DNA of 64,000 nt, from contig NC_083378.1 in the NCBI RefSeq assembly GCF_029542785.1, positions 124,001 to 188,000 on the forward strand, in the 5' to 3' direction. A program made the position numbers and the translations under genes. How positions within the stretch are numbered: position 1 is the first letter of the stretch; the number at the start of each line of letters is the position of its first letter. The stretch is from Malassezia japonica (Eukaryota > Basidiomycota > Malasseziomycetes > Malasseziales > Malasseziaceae). Below are positions 3,001 through 63,701 of the stretch, piece after piece. The notes beneath the pieces are model-generated. The model was not told the DNA's origin. It ran no database searches and was given only the letters and a program-made list of their open reading frames with translations.

Positions 3001-3410
3001 CCCAGTACCGCACCAGGCACGCATCGAGCACGCGCACCAGGCACAAGAGTCGATGCAGCTGGGCCACGGCGTGCTGCGCGTCCATCGAAGGCTGCATAAG
3101 TCGCGCCACGTACAATTTCAAAGAGCTCAATGACACAGAGGCACTCGTACACCACGATCGCAATTTCGTGATCGCTCTCTTCCAGCAGGATCTGCAGCGA
3201 GCGCTCCGCATCCTGGTCGGCGCGCCATGGGAAGGGCGAGGCGGTGATGCTTCCCAGCAGTTGGCGCACCGCGCGCCCGATCGTCACGCGCTGGCTGTTC
3301 TCGGGCGGCACATAGGCGCTGTGCGTCGAGCCCGGCGTTCCTGTCTGCTTCTCATGCAGCACGTAGCCGGGCGAGGGTGTGCGAGGTAGCTCAAACGGCC
3401 GCCGGCTCAT
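1..3410 (-). CDS. Neurofibromin/IRA-type Ras GTPase-activating protein, N-terminal part (cut by window edge)
   Basis: The start codon is at 3410 and the frame stays open to base 1 after one 22-nt intron (3092-3113) is removed, giving about 1,129 residues. The GAP domain would lie beyond the left edge. The assignment rests on an N-terminal helical region resembling neurofibromin: a block around residues 200-300 matching its RISTRLQEL / LLQYIN / VWPLQIILLILCP segments (here RIRTAITQA, LLECANV, LLWPMLAALLSLCP). Neurofibromin/IRA proteins switch Ras off by stimulating GTP hydrolysis, in yeast damping the cAMP-PKA pathway. The remainder is HEAT-like helical repeat sequence. The thioredoxin gene diverges 95 bp upstream. 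The family call depends on the N-terminal region only, because the catalytic domain is not visible. Confidence 0.78.
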
Positions 3411-3505
3411 TCCCCGACACCATGCAGCTGGGGAAGCTGGCGAGGGAGGTACAGGGGCATAATTCCCAATGCCCGTCTCCGGCCGACGACGCTAGGACCA
3501 CCATA

Positions 3506-3953
3506 ATGTTTGTCCGCCACGCAGTCCGTTTCGCGCGCGCGGCGCCCGTGCAGGGTGCGCGTATGCGCTTCTCGACCTCGGCTACGGCACGCTACATCGA
3601 AGAGGACGTCACGTCGGAGCGCCTTGCGCAGCTCCTCGAGTCGAGCAAGGAGAGTGGCAAGCCGGTGCTCGTCGACTTTTTTGCGGACTGGTGCCAGCCG
3701 TGCAAGATGCTGAGCCCGATCCTGCACCGTCTCGTGAACGACCCGAAGCTCGTGAGCGGCCGCGAAGTCGACTTGGTCACCGTCGACGTCGACAAGAACA
3801 TGGAGGCGGCGCAGCTGTTCAAGGTACGTCGATAAACTAACACAGGTTCGTGCCATGCCGACAGTGCTCGCGTTCAAGGACGGCAAGCCTGTCACCTCGT
3901 TTGTGGGCGTGCTCCCCGAGCCCAAGCTCAAGACCTTTATCGAGTCGCTCTAG
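3506..3953 (+). CDS. Mitochondrial thioredoxin
   Basis: Two exons encode 141 aa; the 22-nt intron is 3824-3845. The N-terminus (about 28 residues, Arg-rich, no acidic residues, ending RFSTSA) looks like a mitochondrial presequence. A thioredoxin fold follows, with VLVDFFADWCQPCK at the active site and the cis-proline segment AMPTVLAFKDG in exon 2. The redox pair is Cys-Gln-Pro-Cys rather than the usual Cys-Gly-Pro-Cys. Thioredoxins reduce protein disulfides using thioredoxin reductase and NADPH. An in-frame ORF reaches further upstream, but the ATG at 3506 gives the presequence. The gene converges with RPA43, 94 bp between stop codons. Confidence 0.92.
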
Positions 3954-4047
3954 CCGCGGCGCCGCTCGGTCTCGCTCGCTACTCCACATTCGAAAATAAG
4001 CCAGTTTCCGAGGTATCGGGGTGCATAGAGCTATAGTACACAAGAAG

Positions 4048-5117
4048 TTACTCGGAAGTGCGCTTCTTTTTTTTCGGCTTGTCCTCCTCCGACTTGGACC
4101 GCTTGGACGATGCGTCCTTTTTCGCCTTCTTTTCCTTCTTTTCTTTTTTCTCCTTCTTCTCCTTCTTCTCCTTCTTCTCCTTCTTGTCCTTGTCCTTCTT
4201 TTCCTTCTTCTTCTTCTCCTTGGGCTGCGCGACCGGCGCGGGCGCGTCCTCGTCGCTGACATCGCTCGGGTCCGAGTCCGAGCCCGCCTGCTCGTTATAG
4301 TCGTCCTGGTTCTCGTCGCTGTCCTCGCCATTGTCTTCGACTTCCATAGGCTCGCCGGTCTCTTCTGCGCGCTTGTCTTCCTCTTCGGCGCGGTCCGAGT
4401 CGTCGTCGTCCCAGCGGACCTTGCGCGGCTTGACCGGCTCCTCGTCCTGCGGCTCGTCTTCCTGCGGCTCGCTCGATTCCGTCGCAGCGAGCGCCTGGTC
4501 GAAGCTCAGCGAGCCCGGGCGCGGCGGCGCGACGCTGAACGGATCCTTGAGCAGGCTGCCGTGCAGCGACAGCATATGATTCGCGACCGTCATGCTAATC
4601 ACGGTGAACTTGAGCGTGTGCGACTCGCCGCCGAGGCGCGCGCCCGTCTTTTTGTGACGCCAGAACCCGACCGAGCGGTCCTTGGGATCGGTGCGCTGGA
4701 CATCGTCGTCGTCGTAGTGCACAAACTCGTACTTGGCGCTCGGCAGATGCTGCGCCGAGATGGCCGCGTTGAACGTGTCGTGCAAGAGCAGCGACACATG
4801 GCTCGGCGACGACAGGGTAATGGTTCCCTCTGTGGTTAGCCCAAGCACCTACCCAGCACCATGCCGATTTCCGGGCGCCATACCAGCGCCGAAAAAGCCA
4901 CCGGCGCCACGCCAAACGCCGAGTCGCCGTTGATCCCGCCGAGGGCACTAAGGAAGCGTGCGTCTTTGTGCGTTACCATTACGCCCTCGAGCTGGGGGAT
5001 GTAGCGCATGACGAGCGTGTCGAGCTGCTCCAGGATAGACGATTTCGGGTCCCTGCTCCAAACAGGAGGCACCGGAAGGTGCATCTTGCCGCTCACGTTC
5101 TTCAACGCCGTCGACAT
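4048..5117 (-). CDS. RPA43: RNA polymerase I subunit RPA43
   Basis: Two exons (23-nt intron 4830-4852) give 348 aa. Exon 1 has the family signature LEQLDTLVMRYIPQLEGVM. The spliced junction restores GMVLEGTITLSSPSHVSLL followed by HDTFNAAI, typical of the OB-fold of Rpa43. Rpa43 pairs with Rpa14 in the Pol I stalk and contacts the initiation factor Rrn3, whose gene lies 1 kb away. The last third is acidic and then a Lys/Glu tract (KEKK-type repeats, 4080-4220), probably disordered and nucleolar. The ATG at 5117 is the first usable one; the frame is open further upstream but has no ATG. The promoter region (132 bp, shared with Ran) holds a CACGTG box at 5177. Confidence 0.93.
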
Positions 5118-5249
5118 CGCGCCCGATCGCACCACTGGCAAGCCGCGAGCGCCAGAAAAATTTGGTCTGCCCGATGCACGTGACGGGGCGCGGAAGGGCA
5201 AAGAAGCTGTTTTTCGTGGTGCGCTGTCCCGCCACGACGTATAACGATT

Positions 5250-5966: not shown

Positions 5967-6088
5967 ATGTAGCGTCTGTAGAGAATCACCCCCGGCGCCG
6001 CCCCAAGGCGCCACGCTCCTCGATCAATCACCACGTGGCGCTCCACCGGCGCACTTTTTTCTCTGGACGGTGGTGGCGAGGCGTTGCG

Positions 6089-8459
6089 ATGCCGGCGTCG
6101 CCCCAACGCACAGTCCGCGCGCCGAAACGGCAAGCGGAAAATGGAGCCTCGCTCCACGGGACCCGACAGGGTATGTATGTCACCTTTGTCAAGAATGCAA
6201 TGGTCCAAAAATCCAAGGTACGCCGCCGGACTGACCCAGGGCGAACTCGGGCCCTATCATGAGCTCCTTGCACAATTCCACTCGGGGCCGTCCGCGAGCA
6301 CCTCGGCATCCTCGACGTCGCAGCTGCGCTCGTGGCTCGGCGCACTGTCGCACGTCGCCCCGTCGCTCGACCGCTCCTGCGCAGAGCTCGTGGACGCCGT
6401 CGTCGAGTTTCCCTGGCTCGCGATGCCGGACGAAGTCGCAGAGGCGTGGGTACGCTTCGTGTGCGCGCTCGTCAGCGCGCGCAGCGAGTGGGTGAGCAAG
6501 GTCGCGACTCTCATCTTTCGCAACTTTGGGCTGAATCCAGAGTGGTACCGCGACGCAGAAGCGCTCGCACTCGCCGCAGACGCTGCGCGGCCGACGCGCC
6601 GCCAGCTGTACGACCGCCTCCACGGCCTGCTGCAGAATCTGCTGCGCCTGATCCCGACGCTCCCGTCGACGCTCCAGCCGAGGCTCGTCCAGCACTTTCC
6701 GCACAAGCGCGACCGCACCCTCAGCCAGGTGCTCTATATCCGAAACCTGTTGCGCGTCACCGAGTACTGCGAAGCACTCACCGAGCCGATCTGGAGCGCG
6801 GTCATCGACCATGCTCTGCAGGTCGACGTCGAGATCCAGGTGGAGCTCGACGACCTGGAAGAGCAGGGCGTCGAGCCGGCGAATGTCACGACGCTCGCCT
6901 CGGTGCTCGACCGCGGCGTCGAGGACATCGACGGCGAGTCCGCCCCGTCGTCACCCGTCGAAAAGGACGAGGACCTCGAGGCGCTAGAAGACCTCGACGA
7001 GGAAGACGGCTACGAGGCGTCCGACTCGCTCCTGCCTTCGCATCCCACGGAGCACGAGCCGCAGTGGAACGAGATTGCGGTGCTCGCAGGCAAGCTCGAC
7101 GCGATCATGAAGGCCATCTTTGACTTTCTCGCGCACTACGTTGGCCACGGCAGCTCGCTACGCGGCGGCGCCCCCACCCAGCCGGTGGACGTGCGCCGCT
7201 ACCAGCTGTACCAGACGCTGCTCGGCATCTTCACGCGCTCAGTCTTGACGACGTTCAAGTCGCGCCACGTCCAGTTTCTCCTGTTCTGGTATTCGTCACT
7301 GGACAGCGAGTTTGCCGACATGTTCCTCGGCACGCTGCTCAGCAAGAGCTTGTATGCCCCGGGCGCCCACGCCGACGCCCCGTTTGCGCCGACGAGCGAC
7401 TCGGCAGCGTTTCTGCGCATCGCGGCCGCAAGCTATGTAGCGAGCTACGTCGCACGCGCCAAGTACATTGACGGCTCGACGACACGCATGGTGCTGCTCA
7501 ATCTCTGCACCTATCTCGACGCGTGCCTCGAGTCCTTTGCGCAGCTCGGCTCCTCGGCGCCGCCGCCGGGCTCGCGCGAGCACGCAATGTTCTACGCCGT
7601 GGCCCAGGCCGTGTTCTACCTCTTCTGCTTCCGGTGGCGCGACCTCCGCCAGGGCGGCTCGACGCTCGAGAGCACCTCGCACGAGGACGCGTCGCTCGCG
7701 TCGACCTACCCGACCGCCTGCTCGCTCGAGCTCTCGCCACAGCTCCTGCCGACGCTCAACGGCACGTCCTACTCGTCCGCTTCGTCGAGCACCTCGGGAC
7801 CGCTCGGCACGAGCCTCGCGAGCGAGGCGGGGTGGGCGCCGGGCCTCGCGGTCGTGCAGCGCGCCATCACCTCTCCTTTGAATCCGCTGCGCTACTGCAA
7901 CGGCAACGTCGTACAGCAGTTTGCGTATGTCGCGCAGCACACTGGCTTCCTCTACTGCTACTCGGTGCTCGACGCGAACGCGCGCCGTGCCCAGAGCGAG
8001 GCGCCGCAGCCCGCGGCGTCGGCGCCGGGTACGCCGCAGCGCAAAGGATCGCGCGACGCGCGCGAATCGACGCCGCTCGCGGTGCCCAAGACGAGCGAGG
8101 CGCCGGCGCCGGTGCCTGCAAAAGCCCTCGATGTCTTCTTTCCTTTCGACCCCTATCGGCTGCGGGACTCGGGGCCAATGGTCCACCGCCTGTACCGCGA
8201 ATGGTCGGATGTTGCGCCGGAAGACGATGACGACGAGGACGAGGACGAGGACCATCCAGACGACCTCGACCTCGACCACCACGACGAAGACGAAGACGAC
8301 GAACTCGGCGGACTTCCGTCAGTACGCCGCACCAAGCTGAGCGCAATGATGCCACGCCGGCCTCGCGCCACGCTCTCGTCCATGGACCCGAGCAGCATCA
8401 CGCCCGAATCTGTGGCACAGAGTTTGGAGGCCATGAGCATCAGTCCCTATACAGGCTAA
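6089..8459 (+). CDS. RRN3: RNA polymerase I initiation factor RRN3 (TIF-IA)
   Basis: Two exons (22-nt intron 6218-6239) encode 782 aa. The junction rebuilds MYVTFVKNAMVQKSKGELG, matching the N-terminal helix of Rrn3 family members. Further signatures are YIRNLLRVTEYCEAL and IWSAVIDHALQVDVEIQVEL. A long acidic tract (DDDDEDEDEDHPDDLDLD, about residues 712-745) precedes the C-terminus. Rrn3 bridges Pol I (through Rpa43) to the rDNA promoter factor and is a target of growth signalling. The ATG at 6089 gives a 29-residue leader before the conserved segment; the inner Met of MYVTFV is a possible alternative start. A CACGTG box lies 52 bp upstream at 6032. Confidence 0.94.
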
Positions 8460-8473
8460 ACAGTGTACAGTAG

Positions 8474-11400
8474 CTATCCACCAAGCACGTCAGCCAAGAG
8501 CGCAAGCAGCGACTGCGAGACGCGCGCATTGGTCGTACGGATCGTGAGGCGCGCCAGGCGCACATCGCGGTTGGGCTCGTAGCGCAGCAGGCAGCCCACC
8601 GGGCCGTCCCCGGTGCTCTTCCACACCCCGGCACCGACAATGTTTTCTGGCTTGGGATCGACGCCATCAAGCACGGCCAGGCCTGCATCGCGCACCACCG
8701 ACACGGCCGCAGCATGCGGCAGCTCGCCGTGGGGGGTGAGCGCAATGCCAAACACGCGCTGCGCCTCGAGGCCGTGCTCGACTTGCACCGCCTTCCATCG
8801 CTGGAAAAAGTCGGCCGCGGCGAGCGCCACAGGGTGCACAAAGTGCGCGAGCGTCACGGGCAGTGGGAAGACCAGCGCGCGACTCTCGCGCATCATCAGC
8901 GTCACACGCACGCTCGGACACGCGACGAAGCACGACGCACAGGCCACATGGACCGTGCGCTCGACGTGCCCTCCGCTGGGGAGCGGCGCGGGCGACGTGT
9001 CCAGCTCGGCATGGATGTGCTCGGCATCCGCGCCGTCGGCGGGGACAATGTGCACCGCATGCAGCACGCCGCCGACCGGGCTCACATTCTTGAAATGCAG
9101 CGCAAGGACCGGCGCACGTGTAAAGGAGACCACCACGTCGCTGTCGCGATACAACACGCCTTTGGGGCTGAGCATCGTGCGTGGCAGAACGAGCACGTCA
9201 ATCTCGCGCGGCTCCTCGGGTGCAGCATGCAGCGGCCCGCCCAAATTGAGCTGGTGCATCATCGGGCGCACCGCGCTGTCGGAGCTCTGCGAGAGCATTT
9301 CGGTGTGGTCCGAGTTCAGCGACATTGGCTGCTCGGACCCGCGGCGCGAGGGGAGCGACGGCGAGCTCATTGCACGCTCCGTGTCCGACGAGGTACGTTT
9401 ATCGTGCACCGTCTGCAGCGAAAACGAGGTGGGGAGCGGCGACACAGCATCGAGGCCCAGCAGGCTCTCTTTTTCGCGTTTCGCATCGGGAAGGTCGGAA
9501 TCGTCGGGGAGCGCAAACGAGCTCCAGTCTTCGGCATGCACCGTCGGGACCCCTTGCTGTGCCACCGGGCTGCCGAACTCAAAGTCGCGCATATCCAACA
9601 AGTCGACCTCGGTCGCTGGCAGCTGGGTATTGGCCGTGACTGTATCGGACCGCGGCGTGGTAGGCGACACGAGGGGCTCGACGTGGGGCTGCCGGATGCT
9701 GGACGAGCGTGCAGCGCCTTTGCCGGTCGAGATCGCAATGGGCTGCACGCGCTTGCGCGGCATGAGCTTTCCGAGCGGCGTATCGGGGAGCACATAGGGC
9801 GGCATTTCCTCACACACGAGCCCGAGCATCTCGGGCGTGGCAACCTCGGCGAGCGCCACGTACTCACACGCCCGTTGTTGCACCTCGATATCAATGCACT
9901 GTTGGAACATGCGCAGGATGGACAGCAGCGGGTCGCGGATCGAGGGGTACAGGTTGAGCCACTTGAAATAGGTCGTGAGAAGCAGGACGCGTGTCGAGAT
10001 CGTGCACAGGTGCGAGCGGTCCTGCAGCATCTGCAGCTGGTCGATCGGCTGCGAGCCGGGGCGATCGGCAATCAGGTCGCCAAACTCGCCGAGGAGGTAG
10101 CCGCCGATCTTGATCAGCGTCTCGTGGCACGTCGGCTGCTCCAAGTAGCGGAATAGCGTCGCGACAGCGTAACGCTGCACCTTTGGGTTGTTTGTGACAA
10201 CCTGCACGACACGGTGCCACACTGCATCGCTGACGTGGTCGCCCGCGAGGTTCACCAGCGACAAGACCGTGTCGACGTACCAGGTATAGTCGTCGGCAAA
10301 GCGCTCTGACAGGATCGAGATCTTCATCACGAGGCTTTCGCGCAGCGAGGGCTCCGCACGCGGCAGATACTCGAGCAGATGCGCCACAATCTCGTGGGCA
10401 TTCGTCTCGTCGCACATGTAGTACACGAGCTCGAGCGCGCGGCGGCGCACACTAATGTCGCGGTCGTGCAGCGCTGCAAAGATGGTATTCTGGTGCATTT
10501 GGATCGGTGCGAGCGACGTGAGGCTGCGCGCGAACTGCGACATGGCCACTAGGCCCAAGTAGCGCACATTGGTCTCGCGCGACGTCAGAAAGCGGCCAAG
10601 GAGCACGGCCGAGCGCGCGACAACTACCGAGCCAGTGTCAAGATGCAGCGCGAGGCGGATTGCCTCAAAGAGAATGGCATTGTACGCATTGCTCTGCTGC
10701 ACGTCAACCTGGGACGTGGTAGTCCGCGCGCGCATAATCAGGTCCAAAACGCCGTGCAAAGTCGCGAGCATCCCCTTTTCCGTGGGTGGGGGATAGAGCT
10801 GCAGCAGGCGGAGCAGATTCACCTGCAGCCAAGGCACAGGAATGTCGTGGTACAAGTAGATCTCTTTGTAGTCTTCCTTGACCACGATGTCGTACAGCTG
10901 CTCGACCGCTGGCAAGTAGCAGCTGCGATAGGGCGCCGGTCTGTCCTTGACCAGGACGCGGAGCAAACTTGTGACGCTCTGCGAGACGCCCAAGTGCCTG
11001 TGCCGGATCATGCGTGTGATGTGGGCGCTCCATTCTGCAATGTCGACGCCCTCGGGGTATTTGCGATAGATCTGGACTAGAGTCAAGGCCGCCTTCTTCT
11101 GTACAGTCGATGGCGAGGTCCTGAGGTCAGCACATATACGTACGGTGACACCAAAAGCTTCAGCACTTCTTCTGCGAGCGCTTCGGCCATCTCCAGGCTT
11201 GCAATGTTGGCCACCGCATGGAGGGCGAGGCACGTATTCACCTCGTTCATGTCGGCCAGATCGCGCCGGATCATGGGAATGGCCTGTTTTGAAAAGTCTG
11301 CGTGCTGGTGCACATAGAGCGTGAGCGCAAGATAGCCCTAGGGTCAGCCACAACACCTACAATCTGTTTTTCCGAATACTTGTGGCTGGCCATCAGCGCG

Positions 11401-13335: not shown

Positions 13336-15037
13336 TCACGTTACTTGCCGCCGGTCGTAGGCCCCCAGCCAGTGAAACGTGCGCATGGCGGCCACCAGCG
13401 TGCACAGACTCCCAACACGGAACAGGAGGCCCGTGCTGTCAAAGGCGGCCACCGTCGACTCGTCCCAGACCAGGGAGGGCATCATGAAAACTGGGTGAGC
13501 CAGGAAACGTACATAGGGAAGATAAGAGGGACGTAATTAGTTGGGGGAGCACAATACTCCAGTTATGCAGGCCCATCACCGCGCCAGCATGCGCGCGGAG
13601 GAGGCCCGCAGGCTCCGGCTCTGGCGCAGACGCCGCCTCGGCCTCTGGCGCCTCTGCAGGAGCGAGGGGGTTCAGCGCCACGGATTCAGGGGCGGTGGTT
13701 GATGTCGTATTCAGCAATATGCCAAGAAGCGCATAGGGCGCCCAGAGCGTCATAGACCAACACAGCCCCAGCGTGCCAATGAGCGCCACGGCGCCAGGCA
13801 CGGAATGGTGCGCATAGATGGGGCACGTAAAGAAGAGGAGGCCGACGACAAACATGACCTGCGAACAGAACCATGCCTCGGCCAACGTCGGCTTCCGAAA
13901 GTGCCGCGTCCATTGCGGCGCACGCGCGACGCGGACCTCGTGGGGCTTGGGTGCATGGAGCTCTTCGTCGGGGGGGTCGTCGGCGGACCACACCGTCGTG
14001 GCTGCGGGCGCATAGTCGTGCCGCGAGCGGCCGGGCATCACGCCGTGCAGGCACCACGGTAACGCGATGGATGCGGCAAACGACGTCAGCGAGTAGCACA
14101 ACAGGGCAAAGCTTCCCTTTCGTCGCGCCGCCTCGCTCATCGGGCCGGACGACGTGGGCGGTGTGCCGTGCGCCGCAAAGTAGATATCGGCCACCCAGGA
14201 CGAGCTAAAGTAGAGGATAGGGAACCATGCCAGCCACGAAAAGAACTGGATCTTGAACAGGTCCCAAATGGGCGGCGGCAGAGATTGGCCCGTACGGTAC
14301 AGGTGCCGCACCATGTCGCGTATCGCACGCCCTAAACTCTTGGGGGTATGATCATGAGCACGTACAAGCACTTGCTCATCGATAAGAAGGAACACGGTCA
14401 GGTGCGTCAGGACGAGCAGGACGGCCGCAGAGAGGGCCAGGATGCTCAGATGGTCCAAGTCTAGGCTCGACGACAAGTCCAGCTCGCCGACCAGGTAGCC
14501 AAGCACCGATCCCAGGTTTCCAAAGCGTGCCGCCCACGCATTCCCCAGATCCTGTTCGTCCACACGAAGAATGTCCAAGGCCAGCGCGCGGTGCGCAGCC
14601 GACAGGGTATTGACTGACACGTCGATCCCGATGATTCCGAGGACGCCCAGGAGCATGGCGAGCCACGAGACACCGTTTCCGGTCGTACGTGCGGCATTGC
14701 TTGCAATGGCCAGGCATACAAGGGCTGCCAGACAGAGGATCGCTCCACCGAGCATATACGGCCGCCGGCGCCCCCATTTCCGTGGGCACTCGTCCGACAA
14801 TATGCCAATGACAGGCTGGACTAGTAGTCCACTCAGCGGCCCACCCATCAGCACGATCGCTGTGGTACTCTTAGAAAAGCCGAGGCGCATGAGAAACGGC
14901 GCGGCGCGTGAGTTGAGGATCGACCATACGTAATGAGAGCCGAGGTGCCCGAGCATCACGACAGGCGAGCGCGACCATTCTGGCCCCCATATATACGCTT
15001 CGCCACGGATCTGCTCGTCTCCTCCGTCCGCTGCCAT
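13336..15037 (-). CDS. Major facilitator transporter of the SLC45/GPH (sucrose/alpha-glucoside) type
   Basis: Two exons (22-nt intron 13491-13512) encode 559 aa with about twelve predicted membrane spans. The loop after TM2 reads GILSDECPRKWGRRRPYML, the RWGRRRP-type signature shared by SLC45, plant SUT and Schizosaccharomyces Sut1 proton-sugar symporters. A long hydrophilic central loop and a cytoplasmic segment with SDE motifs are seen. Without the intron the frame would end early; splicing restores a C-terminal span and an extra 50 residues. The likely substrate is a disaccharide or glucoside with protons, inferred from family only. The SmF gene diverges 123 bp away. Confidence 0.85.
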
Positions 15038-15160: not shown

Positions 15161-15449
15161 ATGCCGGTACGTGATGCGACGCTGACGCAGGACTTTCCTG
15201 TGAATCCCAAGCCATTCCTGCAACAGCAGATCGGAAAGAAGGTGCTGATTCGGCTCAAGTGGGGCTTAGAGTACAAGGGCTTCCTGGTCAGCACGGACAA
15301 CTACATGAACTTCCAGCTGGCGAATACCGAAGAGCTGCAGGACGGCAAATCGAACGGTACACTTGGCGAAGTGTTCATTCGGTATGTACATATACTAATC
15401 CAGTTGCAACAATGTACTCTATCTGCGCGAACTGTCGGACTCTGAGTAA
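15161..15449 (+). CDS. Small nuclear ribonucleoprotein F (SmF)
   Basis: The sequence [20 protein letters not shown] then [20 protein letters not shown] is the Sm1 motif of SmF. Splicing out 15382-15403 (22 nt) restores the Sm2 end [12 protein letters not shown]. SmF is one of seven Sm core proteins of U1, U2, U4 and U5 snRNPs. A second candidate intron of 24 nt at 15167-15190, right after codon 2, has a GTACGT donor, a CTGAC box and a CAG end. If spliced, the start becomes [11 protein letters not shown] (80 aa), closer to the family; if kept, eight extra residues are read in frame (88 aa). Two CACGTG boxes (15110, 15120) lie just upstream. Confidence 0.93.
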
Positions 15450-27622: not shown

Positions 27623-28965
<1,343 letters not shown>

Positions 28966-45334: not shown

Positions 45335-47278
45335 CTATTTTTCCTTGTACCGGAACTGGAGGAGCTTGGCGCTCCCAGACGCCGGCGCAGGGGTATCGTG
45401 GAGATCGACGTGCACGCGCTTGACATGCACCGAGTCGGCCGGCGTCGCAGCACGCTTGCTCGCGAGCGGCAGGCGCGGCGTCGTCGGCGCCTGCGCCTGC
45501 ATTCGCGTCGGCGTCGCGTCGCTCACGGCGCGGCGCGGCGCGGCGGCCGTCCGCAGGCCAGGGTCGGTCGGCGGGCCGGCGCGTGCGCGTGGGCCCGAAA
45601 AGCTGAAGCGCTTGAACCACGCCGAGCGGCGCGCCGCGTCGTTCTCGTCCGCCCCGTCGTCCTCCATCTGGAGCGCAAGGCCGGGCGAGGTTGCTGGGCG
45701 CTTCGGCGGGGGCCGCAGCGCAGGCGTGTTGGGCAGGTGCGTCGGGGGAGCCACTGGCGAGTGCGTCGGCGACGACACCGGGCTCGACACGCCGTCCTTC
45801 CAGGTATTCTTGGGCGACGGCGGAGGCGAGGAGCACGGGCTGCCTTGCGAGGACGTCTGGGGCGTGTGGACGCCGTCGCTGCTTGCGCTGCGGTCAAAGA
45901 GCGACGAGGCGTCGGTCGACACGTCGGCTTTGGGCGTGAAGAACTTGCTCGCGGCGCATGCAAGCGGTGCAGGCGTCGCACAGGGTACTGGGGCAGGATG
46001 GGTGGGCGCGGACGCCATGGGAGTGCGGGCAGGCGCCGAGGCCACAGGCGTCCGTGCAGGCGTCGTCGCGCGTACCGGCGTTCCATGCGCCGGGGCGCCG
46101 CCCACTACATTCGTATCCAGCTCGCCCAGGACCTTGCGCGGCGTCGCGCGCTTCTCCTGCCCAAAGAAGGAGCGCAGCGACGGCTGGGCCGACTTGAGCG
46201 GCGGGGCGGCGAGCGGCGCGCCGCCCAGCGGCGTCTTGGCGATCGGGCATAGCTCGCCCTTGGCGATCGCGTGCGCCTCTTCCCATGCCATCGGGGCGCC
46301 GATAAACGCCAGCAGGTGCTCGTGTACGTCCTGCGGCAGCGGCGTGAGCGTCGCCAGGCATCCGTTTCCTCGGGGGTCCCACACGCGCTGGTGCATAAAG
46401 GTGAACTCGGCGCGGCGGAAGGCGTCTTCGTACCCCAGCGGGACGCTCATCTTGCCCTCGAGGCGCAGCGCCTGCACGACCTTTTCCGCCGACTCGTAGC
46501 GGCGGAGGAGTTTGTGTGCATTCTTGAGGCCCATCCCCATGATCGACGGGAGGTAGTCGCACCCCGAGAGGATCGCCATCTGCCGGAACTCGGCGGCCCC
46601 CCATCCCTCGAAAGACACCTGCTTTGCGTTGGCCAGCCGCGCCTGCTGCAGCTCGACGCAGTTGCCATAGGTATCCAGCTTAAAGAGCACGGTTTTGCAC
46701 CCAAACACGAGCAAGTCCGAGTCCTCGGTAATGATCCCGTCAATCATCCCCTCGCGCTCGAGGAATGCGAGCTGCGCGTCCGCCTCGTACGGCGCGACGA
46801 CGTATTCGATGCCTTCCGCACGAAGGACTTTGATCAGTTCGTACGCCATAGCAGGTGTCACGTCGACACACCGCACGAATGCATCGCGCGCGGCTGTGCC
46901 CTTGTTCTGCTGGTGCAGTGCGAGGCCTTTTGCACGGTTCTCGGCGCGTCGGCTGGGTCAGTTTGTGCAACGTACGCGGCGCGCTCGGCTTCCGTGCCGG
47001 CCTTGGACGGCAGAGGGCCACCATCAAACACTACATACGGCCGCACACCATAGTGCTTCAGCATGCGGATACGGTGCGCGGCATAGGCCACGTACCGCGT
47101 CGTCGGGCGGCCGAGCGCCAAGTCGGACGCGCACGCGTACGCGCCGCGGTGCAGCCAGACGTACGCGTCGATTCCGAGCGTCTTGCCGCGGTATTGTTCC
47201 ACATGCGTCTCGACCTGCGTCAGACGCACGACCTACCTGGATGTCTTTCAGCAGGGGAAGCAGTCCAGCAATCCCCAT
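45335..47278 (-). CDS. EXO1: Exonuclease 1
   Basis: Three exons (introns 47215-47236, 22 nt; 46953-46975, 23 nt) encode 632 aa. The start is MGIAGLLPLLKDIQ, with the N-domain FDGGPLPSK, the I-domain YVVAPYEADAQLAFLEREG, acidic residues in GIITEDSDLLVFGCK, and the helix-two-turn-helix SGCDYLPSIMGMGLKNAHKL. The second half is Pro/Thr/Ala-rich and disordered. Exo1 is a 5'-3' exonuclease in mismatch repair, double-strand-break resection and telomere metabolism. It is the FEN1/XPG superfamily member with the EXO1-specific spacing. SmD1 diverges 97 bp away, with a CACGTG box at 47323. Confidence 0.95.
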
Positions 47279-47375: not shown

Positions 47376-47983
47376 ATGAAGTTGGTTCGGTAGGTGGAAG
47401 GTGTCTGACAGCAGCTTTTTGATGAAGCTCAACAATGAGAGCGTCACGATCGAATTGAAGAACGGGACGATTGTGCATGGAACAGTGACTGGTACGTCCA
47501 ACGTGGCTCGTGGATGCGCACAAGAGCGCAGAGGCGTCAGAGGTCGACGTGCGGCGGGCGTGCAGTGTGCGCCGCGTGTGCAGCGTTTGTGCGGGGCGTG
47601 GTAGCACGAAAAAAACATGCGATATGTACGCAGCTTGTGGTGTGGCGAGGCCGCCGCGTTTCCCCGCAGCTTCTATCGATGCGACTCCACGAGCCACTCG
47701 CGAGCAGGCTAATGCAGGTGTCGATGTACAGATGAACACGCATCTCAAGAACGTCAAGCTCACGGTGCGTGGCCGTGACCCGATTTCGTTGGATAGCCTG
47801 GCGATCCGCGGCAACAACACGCGGTACTGGATCCTGCCTGACGCGCTGCCGCTGGATACGCTGCTGGTCGACGATGCGCCGCGGCCCAAGTCGAAGCGCG
47901 ACCCCAATGCGCAGGCCGCACGGGGCCGTGGCGACCGTGGCCGCGGCCGCGGTATGCGTGGCCGCGGCCGTGGCCGGCCGTAA
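47376..47983 (+). CDS. SMD1: Small nuclear ribonucleoprotein Sm D1
   Basis: Three exons encode 118 aa. Exon 1 is 14 nt; intron 1 (47390-47414, 25 nt) ends in tandem CAGCAG, and use of the second AG gives the canonical [20 protein letters not shown]. Intron 2 (47492-47717) is 226 nt, the longest in the window, and interrupts [19 protein letters not shown]. The C-terminus is an Arg-Gly tail ([17 protein letters not shown]), normally methylated. SmD1 is a core protein of spliceosomal snRNPs and contacts the pre-mRNA near the 5' splice site in U1. Confidence 0.96.
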
Positions 47984-48278: not shown

Positions 48279-49540
48279 ATGGCGACGCTGGCGGATATCA
48301 AGGTGTTCAGTGGTACGTTTCTTGGCTCACGCAGGCTCGAGTCACCGGGTGCTCGCAGAGCAGATTTGCAAGCGGTATGTATATTTCCTAACGCAGCCTC
48401 GGCGTGCCACTTGGCAATGCAACCGTGACCAAGAACGAGGCCGGCGAGACGATCGTGCGCATGGGCGAGTCGGTGCGTGAGCACGACGTGTACATTATCA
48501 ACACGTCGTGTGTGTCCCACGGCGCGAGCGGCGAGCTCATCTCGCCCAATACCAGCTTGATGGAGCTGCTGATTATGATTAACGCGTGCAAGACGGCGAG
48601 TGCGCGGCGTGTCACGGCGGTGATCCCCCACTTTTTCTACGCGCGCCAGGACAAGAAGGACAAGAGCCGTGCGCCGATCACTGCGCGTCTCATTGCCAAT
48701 ATGCTGGAGCAGGCGGGCTGCGACCATGTGATTACCATGGATCTGCACGCCTCGCAGATCCAGGGCTTTTTCAACGTGCCGGTCGACAACCTGTACTCGG
48801 AGCCGGCGGCGCTGCAGTACGTGCGCGAGATGCTCGACACGGAGCGCGTGGTGATTGTCTCGCCGGACGCCGGCGGTGCAAAGCGCGCGACGGCGCTCGC
48901 CGACCAGCTCGGCGTGGACTTTGCCCTGTTCCACAAAGAGCGCAAGAAGGCGAACGAGGTGTCGCGCATGGTCCTTGTCGGCAACGCCAAGGACAAGATT
49001 GCCATCCTCGTCGACGACATGGCGGATACCTGCGGCACGCTCGACCTCGCCGCGAGCCGCCTGATGGAGAGCGGCGCGGAGCGCGTCCTGGCTATTGTCA
49101 CGCACGGTATTCTCTCGCCGCCCGCGCTGGAGCGTATCTCAAAGAGCAGCCTCGAGGCGCTGATCGTTACCAACACGCTCCCCCAGGAAGAAAACAGGCG
49201 GCGGTGCTCCAAGCTCGAGGAGATCGACATCAGCCACCTGCTCGCCGAGACGATCCGCCGCTCGCACTACGGCGAGAGTGTCTCGGTGCTCTTCTCGCAG
49301 ATCCCCTACGACACGATCCAGCCGTACCGCCACGGCGTCGACACGCCGCTGCAGAGCCCCCCCCGGTCCTCGACCTCGTCGCCGGTCCCGCCGTCGTCCG
49401 TGTCGGGCGCGGCGCTCGACAAGCGCCTCGCTTCGCTCGAGCTCGGCGCGGGCACGCCGCAGGCCGCGACGCCGCATGCCACGATTGCCCCGAGCCCGCT
49501 GCGCAACGTCTCGGGGGGTGCGCGTGATGAAGATCTGTAG
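48279..49540 (+). CDS. Ribose-phosphate pyrophosphokinase (PRPP synthetase)
   Basis: Three exons (22-nt introns 48313-48334 and 48375-48396; exon 2 only 40 nt) encode 405 aa. The reading frame [20 protein letters not shown] appears only after both splices. Catalytic features are [31 protein letters not shown] and the PRPP loop [13 protein letters not shown]. Bacterial and short eukaryotic forms are about 318 aa; here a Ser/Pro/Ala-rich tail of roughly 85 residues follows the conserved [12 protein letters not shown]. The enzyme makes PRPP for nucleotides, NAD, histidine and tryptophan. Which yeast PRS paralogue it matches is not clear. Confidence 0.93.
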
Positions 49541-49543
49541 TGT

Positions 49544-51329: not shown

Positions 51330-54905
<3,576 letters not shown>

Positions 54906-55037: not shown

Positions 55038-56699
55038 TTACACATTTACATTCCAGTGCCAGCGGTCTTCTTGGTATCCGTTGGCGGTGTCAGTCAAAAG
55101 GATCTCGCGGCGCTTTTGCACATAGGCGGTCACTGGGTAAGTAGAACACACGTACGATCCGTCACTTTCTGGCGCATCACGGGAATGGTGTCCCGATCGA
55201 TCGGCATCTCGAGCTGGCCCGAGAGCTCCTCCACAGCGCGCTCCAGATCGCGCTGATTGTCCTCAAAGAGCTCCGTCATGTTGTTGCGCTCCAGGTAGTA
55301 CACCATGCAGTACGTCCACTTGAGTGTCATGCGGCACTCGGTCAGCGTATCCGCCGCCTTCTTCAGGAACTGCACCTCGATCCAAGTGAGGTCCGACGTG
55401 GCTTGCATCTCGTCCATCTTCTTCTCGATACGCCGATACAGCTCGCGGTCGAGACGCGCCGACTGCTCGTGGTTTGCAAAGCGGTTAAAGTAGAAGAGGT
55501 ACCGCTCAAGCGACAAACGACTCTTCGTCTGCGAATCACGCGCATCGGAGCCGGCCTTTTCGTCGTAGCGGTTGCAGTGGTACCAGCTGTTGCCGTGCTC
55601 GGACCACGGGCCCGAGCACATCCAGCAGTATTCGTAGCGGCACTTGCGGCAGGTCATGTGGTTGCACCCGCCGTTCTTCTCGATCGTCGAGTTGCACTTG
55701 GGGCACTCTTTCGTGTTGGCACTGATCCAGTTGGCCGTCTCGCTGTCGTCCTCGCACTTTTTAAGCCACAGCTTGACGATCGCGCAGATCACGGGCTGGT
55801 GTGCAGCAAGGCCACAGCCAAAGCAGAACCAGTGGTGGCAGTCGCACCGCACCGACGGCACGACCGTCCGCAGCTGCTTCTGCGAGACATGGCACTCCAC
55901 CGCACGCTCGCAGTCGGGGGCGGGACACCACCGCAGGGTATTGTGGTCGTCGACGTACGTCCGGTCGAGCAGGACTCGGTAACGCTCGAGCACGGCAGCA
56001 GGAAGCAGCTTCGACATGGTATCTTCGTCCACCACCAGCTTGCACGCCCCGTTCATGCACTGGATCCGGCGGCTCTCGCCCTCTTCACGCACCTTTTGCT
56101 CCACGTACTGCGTGTAGCAAGGGATGCAGTACCGATGGCCGCAGGCAAGCGCCATCGTATCAATTTGGCCATCGTAGTCGTCTGCCGACATGAAGCACAC
56201 CTCACACGTAAAGTTGGACAGGGTCAAGAGTTTCTGGGACGCGGGGTTGTCCAGCACACCCGCCTCCCATTTGACCTGCTCGGGCGCGTCCATATAGCGC
56301 TCAATCAACCGCTCCTTGTTCCAATGAAAGTGGCGAAGCAGCACGGCCGCATCCGCATTCGACACCATAAACATGCCTGCAATGTGCTCGATCTGAACGC
56401 GCTGCGCGGCTTCAATGCCAGCAATGTCGAGGCACTTGAAATCGACCTCGTACGGCTTCTTGCGCACATCGGTGACCGACATCTCCTGCTCGACAAACAT
56501 CCCATCGTCCGACATGATGTCGATCTCACCGTCGTCGTCATCGTCGCTCGCCGCATTCATATAGTCGACCGCGTCGGCGCCAGGGTCGTTGTAGTCCGCG
56601 TCGCCCACGTCCGAATATTCGTCCATGGAGTCGTCCGCGTATGCATCATAGATCTGGGTAAGCCAAATTTCCACGTACTAAATCGTCAGCGTCCGCCAT
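55038..56699 (-). CDS. Ariadne-type RING-between-RING E3 ubiquitin ligase
   Basis: Three exons (introns 56654-56678, 25 nt; 55133-55155, 23 nt) encode 537 aa. After an acidic N-terminus and a UBA-like region (about 70-130), RING1 begins CEVCFMSADDYDG; the IBR has CDCHHWFCFGCG; RING2 has CPKCNSTIEKNGGCNHMTC, with the catalytic Cys in NGGCNHM. The Ariadne domain follows, ending (after splice) LTAYVQKRREILL. The family (HHARI/ARIH1) forms a thioester and is activated by neddylated cullins, a functional link with DCN1 in this window. Confidence 0.94.
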
Positions 56700-58860: not shown

Positions 58861-60320
58861 ATGGCGGAGATGATGGAGGAGAAGCGCGTCGCCGGTGCGG
58901 ATGCTCGCCCCGCCGACGCTGCCACGCAGCCGGAGCATGTTGATGACCAAGACACCTCGACGTTGGCCCAAGATATGAACGAATTGGACGTGAATACGCA
59001 GTCAGCCGACCCATCCTATCTACGTGAAGAGCTCGCGCGTGTCCAAGAGGAGCGCGATGCCTTTGAATCTCAATACAATAACCTCCTGGAGAAGTTGGCG
59101 CACATGCGGACCACCGTCGGCGAGCGCCTGCGCCAGGACGCCGAGGAGCTCGATCGGAGAGAGCAGCAAATTGAGCGGCTTACCTCACAGGTCGGTGACT
59201 ACGAATCTGCGTCAGTCACGCTCAAAGATGAGCTGGTCGCCTCGAATGCCGAGAACGAGCGCATGACCGAGGAGCTCGACAAGCTGCGGGGCGAGATGTC
59301 CAAGTCGGTCACACTCAACGATCCCGCCGACTTTGATCGTCTCGAGGCGCGGTGCCGCGAGCTGCAAGAGATTGTGGATGGACAGCGTGTCGATCTGGAC
59401 CGCTGGGAGAGCGCCCTGATGGAGGAGCGGTCGTGGAAAGAAGGGCTCGAGGCCCAGGTCCAGCGCACGGAATCCGCGCTGCAGCATGCCAGAGAGCGCG
59501 AGATGGAGCTGCAGAGCACCGTTGAGCAAGAGAAGCGCGTCGCGCGCCAGCTGCAGCAGGCCCTCGAAGAGTTCCAGCTAGGTACGTGGCCCTACTCACC
59601 CAGCGCAAGAGCGCGATGTTCAGCGGACTGTCGGCGAGATGCAGAACCAAGTCGACAAGGCCGAGTCGGAGCTAGAGACCTACAAACTGCGTCTGCACGA
59701 TACCGAGGCCCAGCTTAATGCGGCGCAGGAAGCCACCAGCAAGTGCGAGGCGCTGGAGCGCGAGGTGAAAGAGAAAAACCTATTTATCGGCAAGCTGCGG
59801 CACGAAGCCGTGATCCTCAACGAGCATCTCACAGAGTCCCTGCGCCAGATCCGGCGAGAGTCGTCCGAGGCGCTCGTCGACCGCCGGCTGGTGACCAACC
59901 TCGTGCTGCAGTTCCTCTCCTTCCCTCGTGCAGATACCAAGCGCTTCGAGGTCCTGAAGCTCATGGCCTCCGTCCTCCAGTGGGACGACGAGCAGCGCGA
60001 AAAGGCGGGCCTTCAGCGCAACCAGGACCGCGGCGGCGGGTACCGCCTCTTTGGCTTTGGGTCGTCCCAAAAGGCGCCGCAGTCTCCGGCGCCCAGCGGC
60101 GGCGCAGGCGACGAGGTATGTACTGCTACTGACGCAGTCCGTCTCGAACCTATTTTTGGAATTCCTCCTCTCGGAAGTCGAACGTGGCGAACGTGGCGAG
60201 GAAGGCGCCAGAGGGCCAGCAGCACACGGCGACGCTGCATCAGCGCCGGCCTTTGACCTCCACCGACTCGCACAACTCGACCGAAACCCCGCAGGGGGGG
60301 GAAACGCACCGTCGTCGTAG
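58861..60320 (+). CDS. RUD3: Coiled-coil golgin with GRAB domain (Rud3/GMAP-210 type)
   Basis: Three exons (22-nt introns 59582-59603 and 60116-60137) encode 471 aa. Residues about 45-300 are a long heptad-rich coiled coil (EERDAFESQYNNLLEKLAHM and onward). The GRAB domain follows (VDRRLVTNLVLQFLSFPRAD, TKRFEVLKLMASVLQWDDEQ), which binds Arf1-GTP on cis-Golgi membranes. A Gly/Arg-rich segment and a short tail complete it. Rud3 tethers vesicles at the Golgi. A run of eight G (about 60293-60300) sits near the stop and could be a slippage-prone site. Confidence 0.88.
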
Positions 60321-60464
60321 ACACGCACGTGGGCAAATGGCGGCCAGGTGTTTGCTGCATTCTCGGCAGAATTCTGGCAGTGGAGCAGTGCGGACGGCGC
60401 CGGGGCCACCACCGTCTCCTGGAAATAGTTAAAGGCGCGCTCGCTCCATACTCTTCTTCACACC

Positions 60465-61022
60465 ATGCGTTTCTCTCTTGTTTCGTTCACTGCTACCGCC
60501 CTTGTGGCCCTTGCCGTCGGTGCCCAGGCCGCCGTTACCAAGCGCGACGGCAAGGACGTCAACGCCGAGGTCTACCTCATCCGTCACGGTGAGAAGATCG
60601 ACGACGACCACACCGGTCTCTCGCCCCGCGGTGAGGAGCGTGCCGACTGTGTCGCCGACCTCTTCTCGCAGGGTGACCTGAAGGTGGACGCCATCATCAC
60701 CCAGGACTACAAGTCGAACGGCAAGCGCATCCGCCCCTACGACACCGTCAAGGGCCTCGCCGACCGCCTCGGCCTCACCATCGACCACCACTGCGACCGT
60801 GACGATCAGGACTGCGCCGCGAAGACCATCTCGAAGGCCGCCGACAACGGTGCGCAGAAGATCCTTGTCTGCTGGGAGCACGACGCGCTCTCGGACATTG
60901 CCAAGGCCATCGGCGTCAAGGGCCTCGACTACCCCTCGGAGCGCTTCGACCTTGTCTGGGAGATTGACAACGGCAAGCTCACCAAGCAGTTCTCGGAGGA
61001 GTGCCCCAACCTCGACAACTAA
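60465..61022 (+). CDS. Secreted histidine-phosphatase-family protein
   Basis: One exon of 185 aa. A signal peptide (MRFSLVSFTATALVALAVGA) is followed by a Lys-Arg site at 26-27 suitable for Kex2. The catalytic EVYLIRHGEK and the second histidine in VCWEHDALSD place it in the phosphoglycerate mutase-like histidine phosphatase superfamily. The single domain is short, and five cysteines after the signal suggest disulfides. Codons are very biased to C-ending forms, like the ribosomal proteins, suggesting abundant product. The substrate is unknown; a secreted phosphomonoesterase is the simplest guess. It converges with CHL1, 40 bp between stops. Confidence 0.88.
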   Translation: MRFSLVSFTATALVALAVGAQAAVTKRDGKDVNAEVYLIRHGEKIDDDHTGLSPRGEERADCVADLFSQGDLKVDAIITQDYKSNGKRIRPYDTVKGLADRLGLTIDHHCDRDDQDCAAKTISKAADNGAQKILVCWEHDALSDIAKAIGVKGLDYPSERFDLVWEIDNGKLTKQFSEECPNLDN

Positions 61023-61062
61023 GTATTGTTTCTAGTTCACACGTCGTATTTGCATTGTACAT

Positions 61063-63701
61063 TTAGTTTCGCTTTGAACGGTAGAAGCCTGCAAGCGCAC
61101 TGATGCTGCTACCGAAGCGCTCGTGGGAGCTGGTTTGGCCGGCAATCCACTTGGGCATGCGCGACGCAATCTCGCTGCGCGCAAAGCGGCGGTCCAGCAG
61201 GAGGAACGTGGACTGCGTCAGCGTCAGTACGTACATAGTCGGCGCGATGGCGGATCGCGCGGCCCATCGACTGGTTCACGGCGCGCATGCACAGGTTGAG
61301 GTATAGTTCGCGGCCCAGGTCGGGCTTGGCGCGGGTATCGAGTTTGCGCATGTACTCCATTCGCTCCACCAGTTCGGGGCTTTTGGCGTTGGGGAAGGGG
61401 AGGCCGATCATCACGACGCAGCGCGCGAGGTCGTCCTGGAAATTGATACCTTCAGAAAGTTTGGCGTTGACCACAGCAAAGAGGATCGCACCTTTGGGAG
61501 AGTCCGGCTGGGTCAGCAGAGCGACGTACACTGGGCGAGGCAATCGCCGCCGCGTAGCCCTGCAGGACGCGGTCGACGTCCTGGGCATGCGTCGGCTCCT
61601 GAAACACGCGCTTTCGCTTGCCGATGCGTTCGAGGATGCCCGTCTTTTTCCAGTGGGCAAACGTGCTGTTGAGGCTGCCGTAGGATGGAAAGAAGACGAC
61701 CATGCCGTGGGGAATAATGTTGCTGTAGTTGCTGAGCGCGTTACCGAGCTCGTCGAGCAGCGCCGTATTCTCCCATGCCCCGTGCGTAAACTCGAACGGG
61801 AGGCCTTTGGGGCCGGCGTGCACGATCGCGCCGAGGATATTTTCTTTCGGCACAATGTGCCCGCACGAGTGCTTTACGAAGCGCTCCGGGGGTATTTGGC
61901 CAAAGAGCTGGCGCTGGAACTCGGAGATGGGCTCCATCGTGCCTCCGGCCAGCACGACGCAGCGCGCGGCATCGAGCAGCGGCTGGAATGCATCGGCAGG
62001 GTTCAGCAGGACGTACTTGAGGTGCACACGCACCGCCTCGCCCTCGCGCCGTGCGTGCACGAGAACTTTTCCGTTGCGCGCACGGTCGCCGAGAGCCAGG
62101 AGAAAGCTCTCGACGAGATGCATCGCATGGATCTTGCTGTGCCGCGACGGCGCCTCGCCGGCATGCTCACGCAGCCAGAGCTTGTCTGCATAGCCGCTAA
62201 TCTGAATAAGCCAGTCCACCTACCTTGCGTGCGATTCGCGTGTCTTTCAGCCAATGCTCGAGGCGCAGGAAATTGATTTGGTCGACCGTTCCTCCCAGCT
62301 TGGACACGAGCTGCGCGGTGGTCAGCGTCTCGCTGCCGGGCGAGCGCGACGCACAGAACGCCTGCAGCGCCGCAAGGAGGACCTGGAGCGTGCGCAGGTG
62401 CTCCTCGTTCGAGCCTTTGAGGCGCATCGAGAAGCGCGACAGGTACGCATTGACCTGAAAAGCAGCCTGTTCAATGTGCGCCTGCGACAGTTCGATCGAG
62501 TAGGTCGCGAGAATCGTGTCGATGAGGTTGTGCGCCTCGTCGATGATGACCACCGCGTCGTCGAGGTCGAGCGCGAGCGCGTCGCGCGCGTCCTGCTGGA
62601 GCAAGAGGTTGTATGGCAACGTCACGAGCTCGGCCTGTGCAAGGCTCTTGCGTGCGCCAAAGTACGGGCACGTATGCATCGCCTTGCCGAGCTGTACGAG
62701 GTCCTCGATATCGCGCACGTCCGCCTGGGTCAGTGGGACGACGTACCAAGGCGTGGTCGCGGAATGCATTCATTTTGGCCTCGCCGGCCGCGTCCTGTGC
62801 GGGAAGGTACGCACACCGCTTCTTGGACTTGCCCGACTCCATCAGCTCCAGGCACCGCTCGTTCATAGCCTCGGTGCCAAACGTGGCACCGACGCGCTGG
62901 ACATCGGCATTGATGCACATTTGCTTCCTGCTGCCGAGCGCGACGGTGCGCACGGGGTCGTCGGCGGCGCCCTGCCCAAACGCCGTGCGTTTCAGCTCGT
63001 GGATCAGCTGCGAGAGCTGGCTGTGTGTGCGGCTCGCGTAGTACACCTTTGGCGTCGTCGCCGGCTCTTCGTCCGGTGCCGTGTCCTTTTCCACGCTCGT
63101 CTCGAACGCGGCCATCATGGCACGCACCTCGTCCGAGACGAAAGGGACCTGCGGAGCCGCGTCCTTCGTGGTCCGTTTCTGCTCGTCATAGTCGCCCACG
63201 AGAAAGTCCGAGTCGGACTCGTCGCCGTCGGTGTCGAGCCGCTGTCGCTTCTTGTCCGTGCGCCCCTCGGGCCGTTTCTCGTCCTTGGCCCGCTGCCGGA
63301 TCGCACGGAGCTTTTCGCGAAACTCGGCGTGGCGTGCCTCGAGCGCCTCGCGCTGCTTGGCCTGGTCGTGCGCGACGACCCAGTCCGGCTCCGTGTCTTG
63401 GTCGTCGACCCCCTTTTCCACGACGCCGACTTGAGCGCGCTTGCGATGGAGTGCCATCCATGTAAACGCGCTGCACAAGAGGCTCAGCGTTTTACCCTGG
63501 GTGAGCCGTGCGACGTACGGTGCCGGTGGGGCTTTCAAAGACGCCTGCGCGCCCCTCTTCGATCGCGCGAAAGAGCTCCTCCATGAGCTGCAGCTGGATA
63601 TCATATGCGACCGGGTACGGAAAATGAAACGCGCGTGAGCGTCCCTCGGCATCCTCTCCCTCGCCCGGCACACGCAGCGCGAGCGACGTCGAGTGCTGCA
63701 T
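61063..63701 (-). CDS. CHL1: Chl1/DDX11-type 5'-3' DNA helicase
   Basis: Six exons encode 842 aa; all five introns are 22 nt (63497-63518, 62725-62746, 62202-62223, 61508-61529, 61213-61234). Intron 1 splits Walker A, restoring VFESPTGTGKTLSLL. The Fe-S cluster cysteines are around CINADVQ, ERCLEL, KKRCAYL and HTCPYFGARK. The DEAH box reads VVIIDEAHNLIDTI; downstream motifs include SEGINFQDDLARCVVMIGLP and NQSMGRAIRHRADY. Chl1 supports sister-chromatid cohesion and fork repair with Ctf4. Length and order fit Chl1 (yeast 861 aa) better than Rad3/XPD or FANCJ. Confidence 0.93.

Follow-up and report, generated by a model that had tools for sequence, protein, structure and literature searches.

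Introns of exactly 22 nucleotides and a sharp lower cut-off in intron length in the yeast Malassezia japonica

How little sequence can an intron hold and still be removed from the message? The question is raised by a stretch of 64,000 nucleotides of the Malassezia japonica genome, an 8.43-Mb assembly in nine contigs. In this stretch, which is bases 124001-188000 of contig 9 and is called the window below, an earlier note had described a dominant class of 22-nucleotide (nt) introns. Ultrashort introns are otherwise reported, in the passages of the literature cited below, from ciliates, nucleomorphs and parasites, and their occurrence here concerns a dikaryotic yeast. We find that about half of the M. 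japonica introns examined measure exactly 22 nt, and that the length distribution breaks off sharply beneath this value.

Introns were called in a 254-kb set consisting of the window and 19 of 20 sampled stretches, one half-masked stretch being left out. Two gene finders were run, both of which demanded GT..AG ends: a motif-blind one, which combined codon usage with a flat length prior and accepted every GT..AG interval of 10-200 nt whatever its motifs, and a motif-model one, whose intron model was trained on the same data. The motif-blind run gave 177 introns, whose lengths form one sharp peak, at 22 nt (51 introns), the remaining lengths being sparse across 10-200 nt and many of them probably false. 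The motif-model run gave 208 introns, spread over the window and 18 other stretches, 184 of them with a score above zero. Among these 184, which have a median of 22 nt, 97 are exactly 22 nt (53%, or 42-65% in a bootstrap over stretches) and 80% fall in the range of 22-25 nt. The only two introns below 22 nt in that run (18 and 20 nt) both score below zero. The dominant class is thereby narrow and sits at the lower edge of the intron length distribution. Within the window, the motif-model run returned 64 introns, of which 33 are 22 nt, 12 are 23 nt, three are 24 nt, three are 25 nt and 13 are longer. The counts at 22-25 nt are identical to those of the earlier note, and the dominance that it claimed for the 22-nt class extends to the 254-kb set; its total of 61 introns differs from ours among the longer ones, several of which are doubtful. 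Those at 14725-14868 and 63781-63904 score below zero, those at 12839-12908, 14246-14365, 28413-28487 and 47585-47717 have weak scores of 0.1 to 1.2, and the last is a portion of a 226-nt intron described below.

The class can also be counted without gene models. A strict motif, GTANGTN7CTNACNCAG, matches 2,329 times genome-wide, against no match for the reversed motif and an expectation of 0.66 from base composition. The 23-nt form, with one base more ahead of the CAG, occurs 143 times against none in the control. When the linker between donor and branch site is shortened to 0-6 nt, all such forms pooled give 14 matches genome-wide against nine in the control, with three of these matches at 21 nt. 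A relaxed motif, counted over 264 kb, gives the same picture: 10 matches in total at 15-19 nt (two at 19 nt, against one in the control), none at 20 nt, none at 21 nt, then 97 at 22 nt, 29 at 23 nt, six at 24 nt, 11 at 25 nt and three at 26 nt. Its reversed counterpart gives 0-5 matches per length, with eight in total at 14-21 nt and two at 22 nt. Scaling the strict count by 97/72 gives an estimate of some 3,100 introns of 22 nt in the genome, and scaling 184 introns per 254 kb gives about 6,000 introns of all lengths.

A drop of this kind might owe nothing to the splicing machinery. If the introns are real and the edge at 22 nt comes from translational selection, then lengths of 21 and 24 nt would have been purged, since their retention sets off no decay of the message, and lengths of 20 nt or less would merely be rare. 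The relaxed counts contain a point in favor of this view, in that 24 nt is rarer than 23 and 25 nt (six against 29 and 11), which fits an avoidance of lengths divisible by three, and 21 is divisible by three as well. However, introns of 20 and 19 nt, which are not divisible by three, are also missing, and the loss at 24 nt is few-fold whereas that at 21 nt is several hundred-fold (2,329 against three). We regard selection of this kind as an unlikely explanation of the edge itself.

That these segments are absent from the message was judged from the reading frame. Codon usage was compared over 75 bases on either side of each site, where removal predicts that the frame shifts by the segment's length modulo three. 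The 22-nt sites shift by one in 50 of 51 unambiguous cases (73 sites, with 20 ambiguous and two unscorable), the 23-nt sites by two in 12 of 12 (20 sites, eight ambiguous), and the 25-nt sites by one in seven of seven (nine sites), while the 24-nt sites show no shift in three of three (four sites). The single unambiguous 26-nt site behaves as predicted, and the three sites of 27 and 29 nt are all ambiguous. Two kinds of control site mostly keep their frame: those with GT and CAG ends 22 nt apart and no branch site keep it in 47 of 48 unambiguous cases (of 131), and those with GTANGT and no branch site downstream in 67 of 74 (of 219). With a codon table derived from outside the window, the window's own sites give the same answer, agreeing in 18 of 19 unambiguous cases for 22 nt (of 33 sites) and in eight of eight for 23 nt (of 12).

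These results bear directly on what the earlier note had named as a possible undoing of its reading, that the stretches are kept in the message or are frameshift errors in the assembly. An unspliced 22-mer does shift the frame just as a sequencing error would, yet the size of the shift tracks the length class (1, 2, 0 and 1 for 22, 23, 24 and 25 nt). Donor, branch site and acceptor stand at fixed spacing even among the motif-blind 22-mers (48 of 51), alignments of orthologues continue across the junctions, and random errors would not recur 2,329 times with zero reversed matches. Since the frame shift follows the length class and the branch site is conserved, both retention and assembly error are unlikely, and to the latter we give practically no credence. 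The DNA shows segments that are removed before translation, with a fixed geometry and a cliff at 22 nt.

Protein continuity leads to the same result. Twelve of the 14 junctions in seven spliced proteins fall within single unbroken Pfam matches; seven of the 12 are left by 22-nt introns, two by 23-nt introns and one each by introns of 25, 29 and 37 nt. All introns of the window listed here and below, apart from the 226-nt intron of SmD1, are calls of the motif-model gene finder, and for several genes proteins add a further basis. On the plus strand, a thioredoxin domain is continuous over the junction left by a 22-nt intron (3824..3845), and the same holds in Pfam for the 22-nt intron of the LSm3 gene (27477..27498), the identity of LSm3 being confirmed. 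The SmF gene, also on the plus strand, has a 22-nt intron (15382..15403) whose junction lies within a Pfam match and is ungapped against a solved SmF, and a 24-nt intron (15167..15190) whose junction falls at codon 2, beyond the Pfam and solved-SmF matches. Two plus-strand 22-nt introns of a ribose-phosphate pyrophosphokinase gene (48313..48334 and 48375..48396) are covered by Pfam and by an ungapped match to a solved protein. The SmD1 gene, again on the plus strand, matches a solved SmD1 without gaps across a 25-nt intron (47390..47414) and the 226-nt intron (47492..47717), the latter serving as a long comparator. On the minus strand, Pfam supports a 25-nt and a 23-nt intron (54263..54287 and 54735..54757) in a 3-hydroxyacyl-CoA dehydrogenase gene. 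The splicing genes of the window, SmF, LSm3 and SmD1, carry short introns too. Outside the window, the unspliced Prp18 gene yields two six-frame fragments of 69.6 and 37.6 bits, and the model from which introns of 34, 22, 23 and 32 nt are removed yields a single match of 195 bits over positions 3-142 of 143, with all four junctions inside it.

Comparison with relatives and with the public annotation adds a further view. The NDUFA13 (GRIM-19) gene (19451-19920, plus strand) carries two 23-nt introns (19464..19486 and 19500..19522), a 22-nt intron (19673..19694) and a 24-nt intron (19837..19860), all supported by protein alignment. Its spliced product equals the public protein MJAP1_004165 apart from eight residues, VRFLYSQQ, which are the translated 24-nt intron and are missing from the other ten aligned sequences (eight Malassezia species, one of them twice, plus Tilletiaria). 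As the public protein is otherwise identical, the annotation had evidently removed the 23-, 23- and 22-nt introns and missed the 24-nt one. A dolichol-phosphate mannosyltransferase gene on the plus strand has introns of 22, 23 and 22 nt (53231..53252, 53329..53351 and 53552..53573), supported by Pfam and by a homologue alignment in which M. caprae, M. vespertilionis, two further proteins and Tilletiopsis run gapless through all three junctions. The EMC4 gene (31725-32333, minus strand) has three 22-nt introns (31919..31940, 32167..32188 and 32244..32265), placed by comparison with homologues. None of the best 120 of 150 matches to this gene is named M. japonica, some being unnamed; the public M. 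japonica model may be broken or may lie outside the length limits of the search.

At the sites of several of these introns, the proteins of relatives carry extra residues, from which intron lengths in those species can be estimated. The M. obtusa mannosyltransferase has an extra VRARLTQ at the site of 53329-53351, whose codons fit a 21-nt intron of the form GTNCGN-6 bases-CTNAC-N-CAG; this protein also lacks 18 residues beside the site of the first M. japonica intron. An EMC4 protein 71% identical to that of M. japonica has VRPPSPRALTQ at the site of 32167-32188, which fits a 33-nt intron, and M. vespertilionis NDUFA13 has YGDERRAHNS at the site of 19673-19694, a less neat fit to an intron of 30 nt. 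For NDUFA13 of M. vespertilionis there are two public models, which disagree with each other. Introns that appear to occupy the same site at different lengths in different species suggest shrinkage in place, and the M. obtusa sequence indicates that the floor may be one base lower in that species. For annotation, the practical consequence is that gene-calling misses some of these introns, as with the 24-nt intron of M. japonica NDUFA13 and, seemingly, the 21-nt intron of the M. obtusa mannosyltransferase.

The anatomy of the class was described from the 97 introns of 22 nt, which were picked with the help of the motif model. Their general layout is a donor, seven free bases, CTNAC or CTNAT, one base and CAG. 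The donor has GT in 100%, A at +3 in 97%, G at +5 in 100% and T at +6 in 95%; position +4 is C in 74%, G in 18%, T in 7% and A in 1%. The linker, with a G+C content of 57%, is slightly biased within bases 7-13, toward G at 8, C at 9 and A or G at 13. The branch site follows with C at 14, T at 15, any base at 16, A at 17 and C or T at 18, and then base 19 is chiefly C or G and base 20 is C (93%) or T, ahead of the final AG. With the branch A at base 17, it lies 16 nt past the first G, and the last G lies 5 nt further on. This is the spacing given in the earlier note (some 16 nt to the branch A and 4-5 nt from there to the acceptor). The motif-blind 22-mers, in which the donor beyond GT was left free, begin with GTACGT, GTAGGT or GTATGT in 47 of 51 cases, and in 48 of 51 a CTNAC or CTNAT starts at base 14.

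Measured against the base composition of the genome, a 22-mer holds 25.1 bits, a figure somewhat inflated because the sequences were chosen with the motif model, and which to that extent counts among the reservations gathered below; 24.0 bits single out one place on both strands. The 22-nt intron is nearly self-defining, its roughly 25 bits being just over the 24 needed. The preference for C at +4 differs from the donor +4 switches in the published passages on Saccharomycotina, which are almost solely between A and U (PMC10581693), and high G+C may be its simple reason.

Could such segments be removed by some means other than a spliceosome, such as DNA elimination of the ciliate kind, translational bypassing, or tRNA-type or self-splicing? 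Their length gives some ground for asking, as 22 nt is under the range of most textbook spliceosomes. Yet they have GT..AG ends, and their branch site, CTNAC or CTNAT, is complementary to the GUAGUA of the genome's own U2 small nuclear RNA (snRNA). The 226-nt SmD1 intron likewise ends in CTAAT-G-CAG, so the 3' module is independent of shortness; some other long predicted introns, several of them doubtful, have no branch site this close to the acceptor. Furthermore, the segments are still in the assembled DNA, and known spliceosomal parts are present. Removal by non-spliceosomal means is accordingly very improbable. The view of the earlier note, that of a spliceosome acting on introns whose recognition sites leave hardly any space between them, is supported.

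What of the machinery itself? U2 snRNA is present and canonical through the branch-binding GUAGUA, and U6 snRNA is present with its usual ACAGAGA. Slu7, Prp18, U2AF65, SmF, SmD1 and LSm3 are all present, with no loss among these six proteins. In budding yeast, Slu7 and Prp18 are dispensable for introns whose acceptor lies near the branch. A loss of either protein owing to this proximity was considered for M. japonica and is ruled out, both genes being present. Loss of U2AF65 is likewise ruled out, the nearest solved relative of the candidate being U2AF65. A compensating change in U6 for the C at donor +4 is excluded by the usual ACAGAGA, whereas the idea that A is missing at +4 through a lost METTL16 is unsupported but keeps some probability. 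A gene of the METTL16 family was found (in sampled stretch L029), yet among solved proteins it is closest to a fungal psilocybin synthase (172 bits), METTL16 coming next (110 bits); the two form one family, and the ranking need not mean more than fungal kinship. The end of this gene model is doubtful.

The U2AF65 gene, intronless in our model, lies in another sampled stretch (L026:1504-2940). Its six-frame match of 224 bits is under the curated cut-off of 310, and Pfam at default settings reports RRM2 alone, but among solved structures the best matches are U2AF65 chains, which cover RRM1-RRM2 (residues 142-330) and a portion of RRM3 (346-394). Relative to the human chains, the only ones compared, RRM1 reads RRLDVSGI for RRLYVGNI and NYAMVEF for NFAFLEF (Y to D, F to M), and RRM2 reads KLYVGSI for KLFIGGL and GIAFCEF for GYAFCEY (Y to I). 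The changed stretches are RNP2 and RNP1, in which aromatic side chains stack on RNA. Such changes would be in keeping with a U2AF65 that has ceased to read pyrimidine tracts. The inspection of splicing factors that the earlier note had proposed has turned up an ordinary U2 snRNA, and a U2AF65 that is present and whose RRM1 diverges from its human counterpart at two sites of RNA contact.

Taken together, we consider that these are very probably U2-type spliceosomal introns, shortened by deletions down to a floor. The proposed intron would consist of a 6-base donor, read by U1 and then U6, seven free bases, a 5-base branch site read by U2, one base and CAG, with nothing spare. The floor would be steric, in that a linker shorter than 7 nt would not span the space from the donor on U6 to the branch helix formed with U2, while the acceptor would have to sit about 5 nt past the branch A. 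A weaker, added selection may act against lengths divisible by three, which would be disfavored because a retained copy would not shift the frame. The few bases from branch to acceptor cannot accommodate a pyrimidine tract, so that U2AF65, although kept, cannot bind these introns in the textbook way. The splicing machinery of M. japonica seems to run at a physical minimum.

Several observations weigh against this account. Removal was judged from DNA alone, by frame shift and protein continuity. One of the 51 unambiguous 22-nt sites shifts the wrong way, as does one of the 19 scored with the outside-trained codon table; the sole unambiguous 28-nt site shows no shift (zero of one), and seven of the 74 control sites with GTANGT did shift. 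No U1 snRNA was matched genome-wide, either by the Rfam model, which is silent in control genomes too, or by a pattern. The counts behind the dip at 24 nt are small, the proposed steric cause could be joined by selection on length, and the M. obtusa intron, if it is 21 nt as its protein suggests, means that the floor is not equal in all species.

A more specific version of the steric account joins these threads. The spliceosome of a fungus, with U2AF65, Slu7 and Prp18 retained, would have a hard, species-specific minimum (16 nt from donor G to branch A plus 5 nt from there to the acceptor) to which thousands of introns have run down exactly; the 22-mer would then be a ruler of how far the donor on U6 lies from the U2 branch helix, RRM1 of U2AF65 would have drifted for want of a pyrimidine tract to bind, and the rulers of relatives such as M. 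obtusa may be one nucleotide shorter. We favor this version by a small margin over its being wrong. A few thousand introns of one length, with a several-hundred-fold drop one base lower, make the minimum substrate of a spliceosome measurable and testable, and the same introns raise the question of what U2AF does where a pyrimidine tract has no room.

The other short introns of the window span most of its length. Those of 22 nt are found on the minus strand at 3092..3113 and 63497..63518, the outermost of the class, and at 13491..13512, 24726..24747, 31028..31049, 47215..47236, 52556..52577, 52843..52864, 61213..61234, 61508..61529, 62202..62223 and 62725..62746, and on the plus strand at 6218..6239, 23007..23028, 25154..25175, 31307..31328, 31550..31571, 44212..44233, 44331..44352, 45175..45196, 59582..59603 and 60116..60137. 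Introns of 23 nt occur on the minus strand at 4830..4852, 11121..11143, 11338..11360, 27829..27851, 28039..28061, 46953..46975 and 55133..55155, and on the plus strand at 25453..25475; the minus strand also has one intron of 24 nt (42755..42778) and one of 25 nt (56654..56678). Across the window and the 19 sampled stretches, 80 of 109 complete gene models contain an intron, and introns are skewed toward the start of genes: the four quarters of the coding sequence, taken from the 5' end, hold 58, 31, 31 and 39. The 226-nt intron of SmD1 is far above most lengths and stands in a splicing gene, where its retention could regulate the gene; Rfam at gathering thresholds gave no match over the window, this intron included, and a tRNA scan of the window found none.

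How does this compare with known systems? The comparisons that follow draw on passages of the papers cited. Short introns in Malassezia are already in print: a review calls them 'very short' (PMC7426719), those of M. restricta have a median of 30 nt and a mean of 37.2 nt in an annotation based on RNA sequencing with a minimum of 15 nt (PMC6473144, PMC9241646), and those of M. globosa have a mean of 76-79 nt (PMC4634964), while U. maydis, of the same subphylum, has introns of 24-1,899 nt with a mean of about 170 nt supported by expressed sequence tags (PMC2219887). In these passages the short introns of other Malassezia come without an exact quantum or a cliff, and the M. japonica median is 22 nt. 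Among the best-ranked matches in the open-licence literature, we found no account of the 22-nt class, its geometry or the cliff in Malassezia. The novelty suggested by the earlier note has to be narrowed accordingly: short introns as such are described, in Malassezia and in Encephalitozoon cuniculi, and it is the 22-nt quantum with its cliff that is absent from those matches.

The E. cuniculi introns, of which 37 are described at 22-76 nt and confirmed by RNA sequencing (PMC3629993), resemble those of M. japonica in reaching down to 22 nt and in their strict donor and branch motifs; unlike them, they are 37 against thousands, and their type goes with a reduced spliceosome that has lost many core splicing factors, whereas the few protein factors checked in M. 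japonica are kept. The 3' module CTNAC-N-CAG resembles the fused branch and acceptor of Yarrowia lipolytica, with about one base between the motifs (PMC2911113), a distance given as 2 nt in PMC2483917, definitions differing between the papers; the latter also describes such anchoring of the acceptor to the branch in several lineages. The 5' side in Yarrowia is long (median 204, mean 269, from unlabelled table columns in PMC2483917), whereas that of M. japonica is minimal. Beyond fungi, a 23-nt intron of Trichomonas was termed among the shortest known in 2025 (PMC12316389). The ciliate Stentor coeruleus has 8,806 introns of 15-16 nt, 8,173 of them 15 nt, with the branch A at base 10 (PMC9505925); it shares with M. 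japonica an almost single length, a fixed branch A and a 5-nt tail, but its introns are shorter, consist of A+U to 75.6% and lack a strong branch consensus, against 22 nt, a branch A at base 17 and a linker of 57% G+C here. Finally, the nucleomorphs of chlorarachniophytes (Bigelowiella natans, Lotharella and Amorphochlora) hold 793-1,028 introns per genome, mostly of 18-23 nt, with one commonest length per species that reaches 70.3% at 19 nt in B. natans (PMC4494063). They are alike in their tight length class and unlike in being the relict nuclei of endosymbionts rather than the nucleus of a fungus, and the 2,329 strict 22-nt matches of M. japonica are more than twice any nucleomorph intron total given there.

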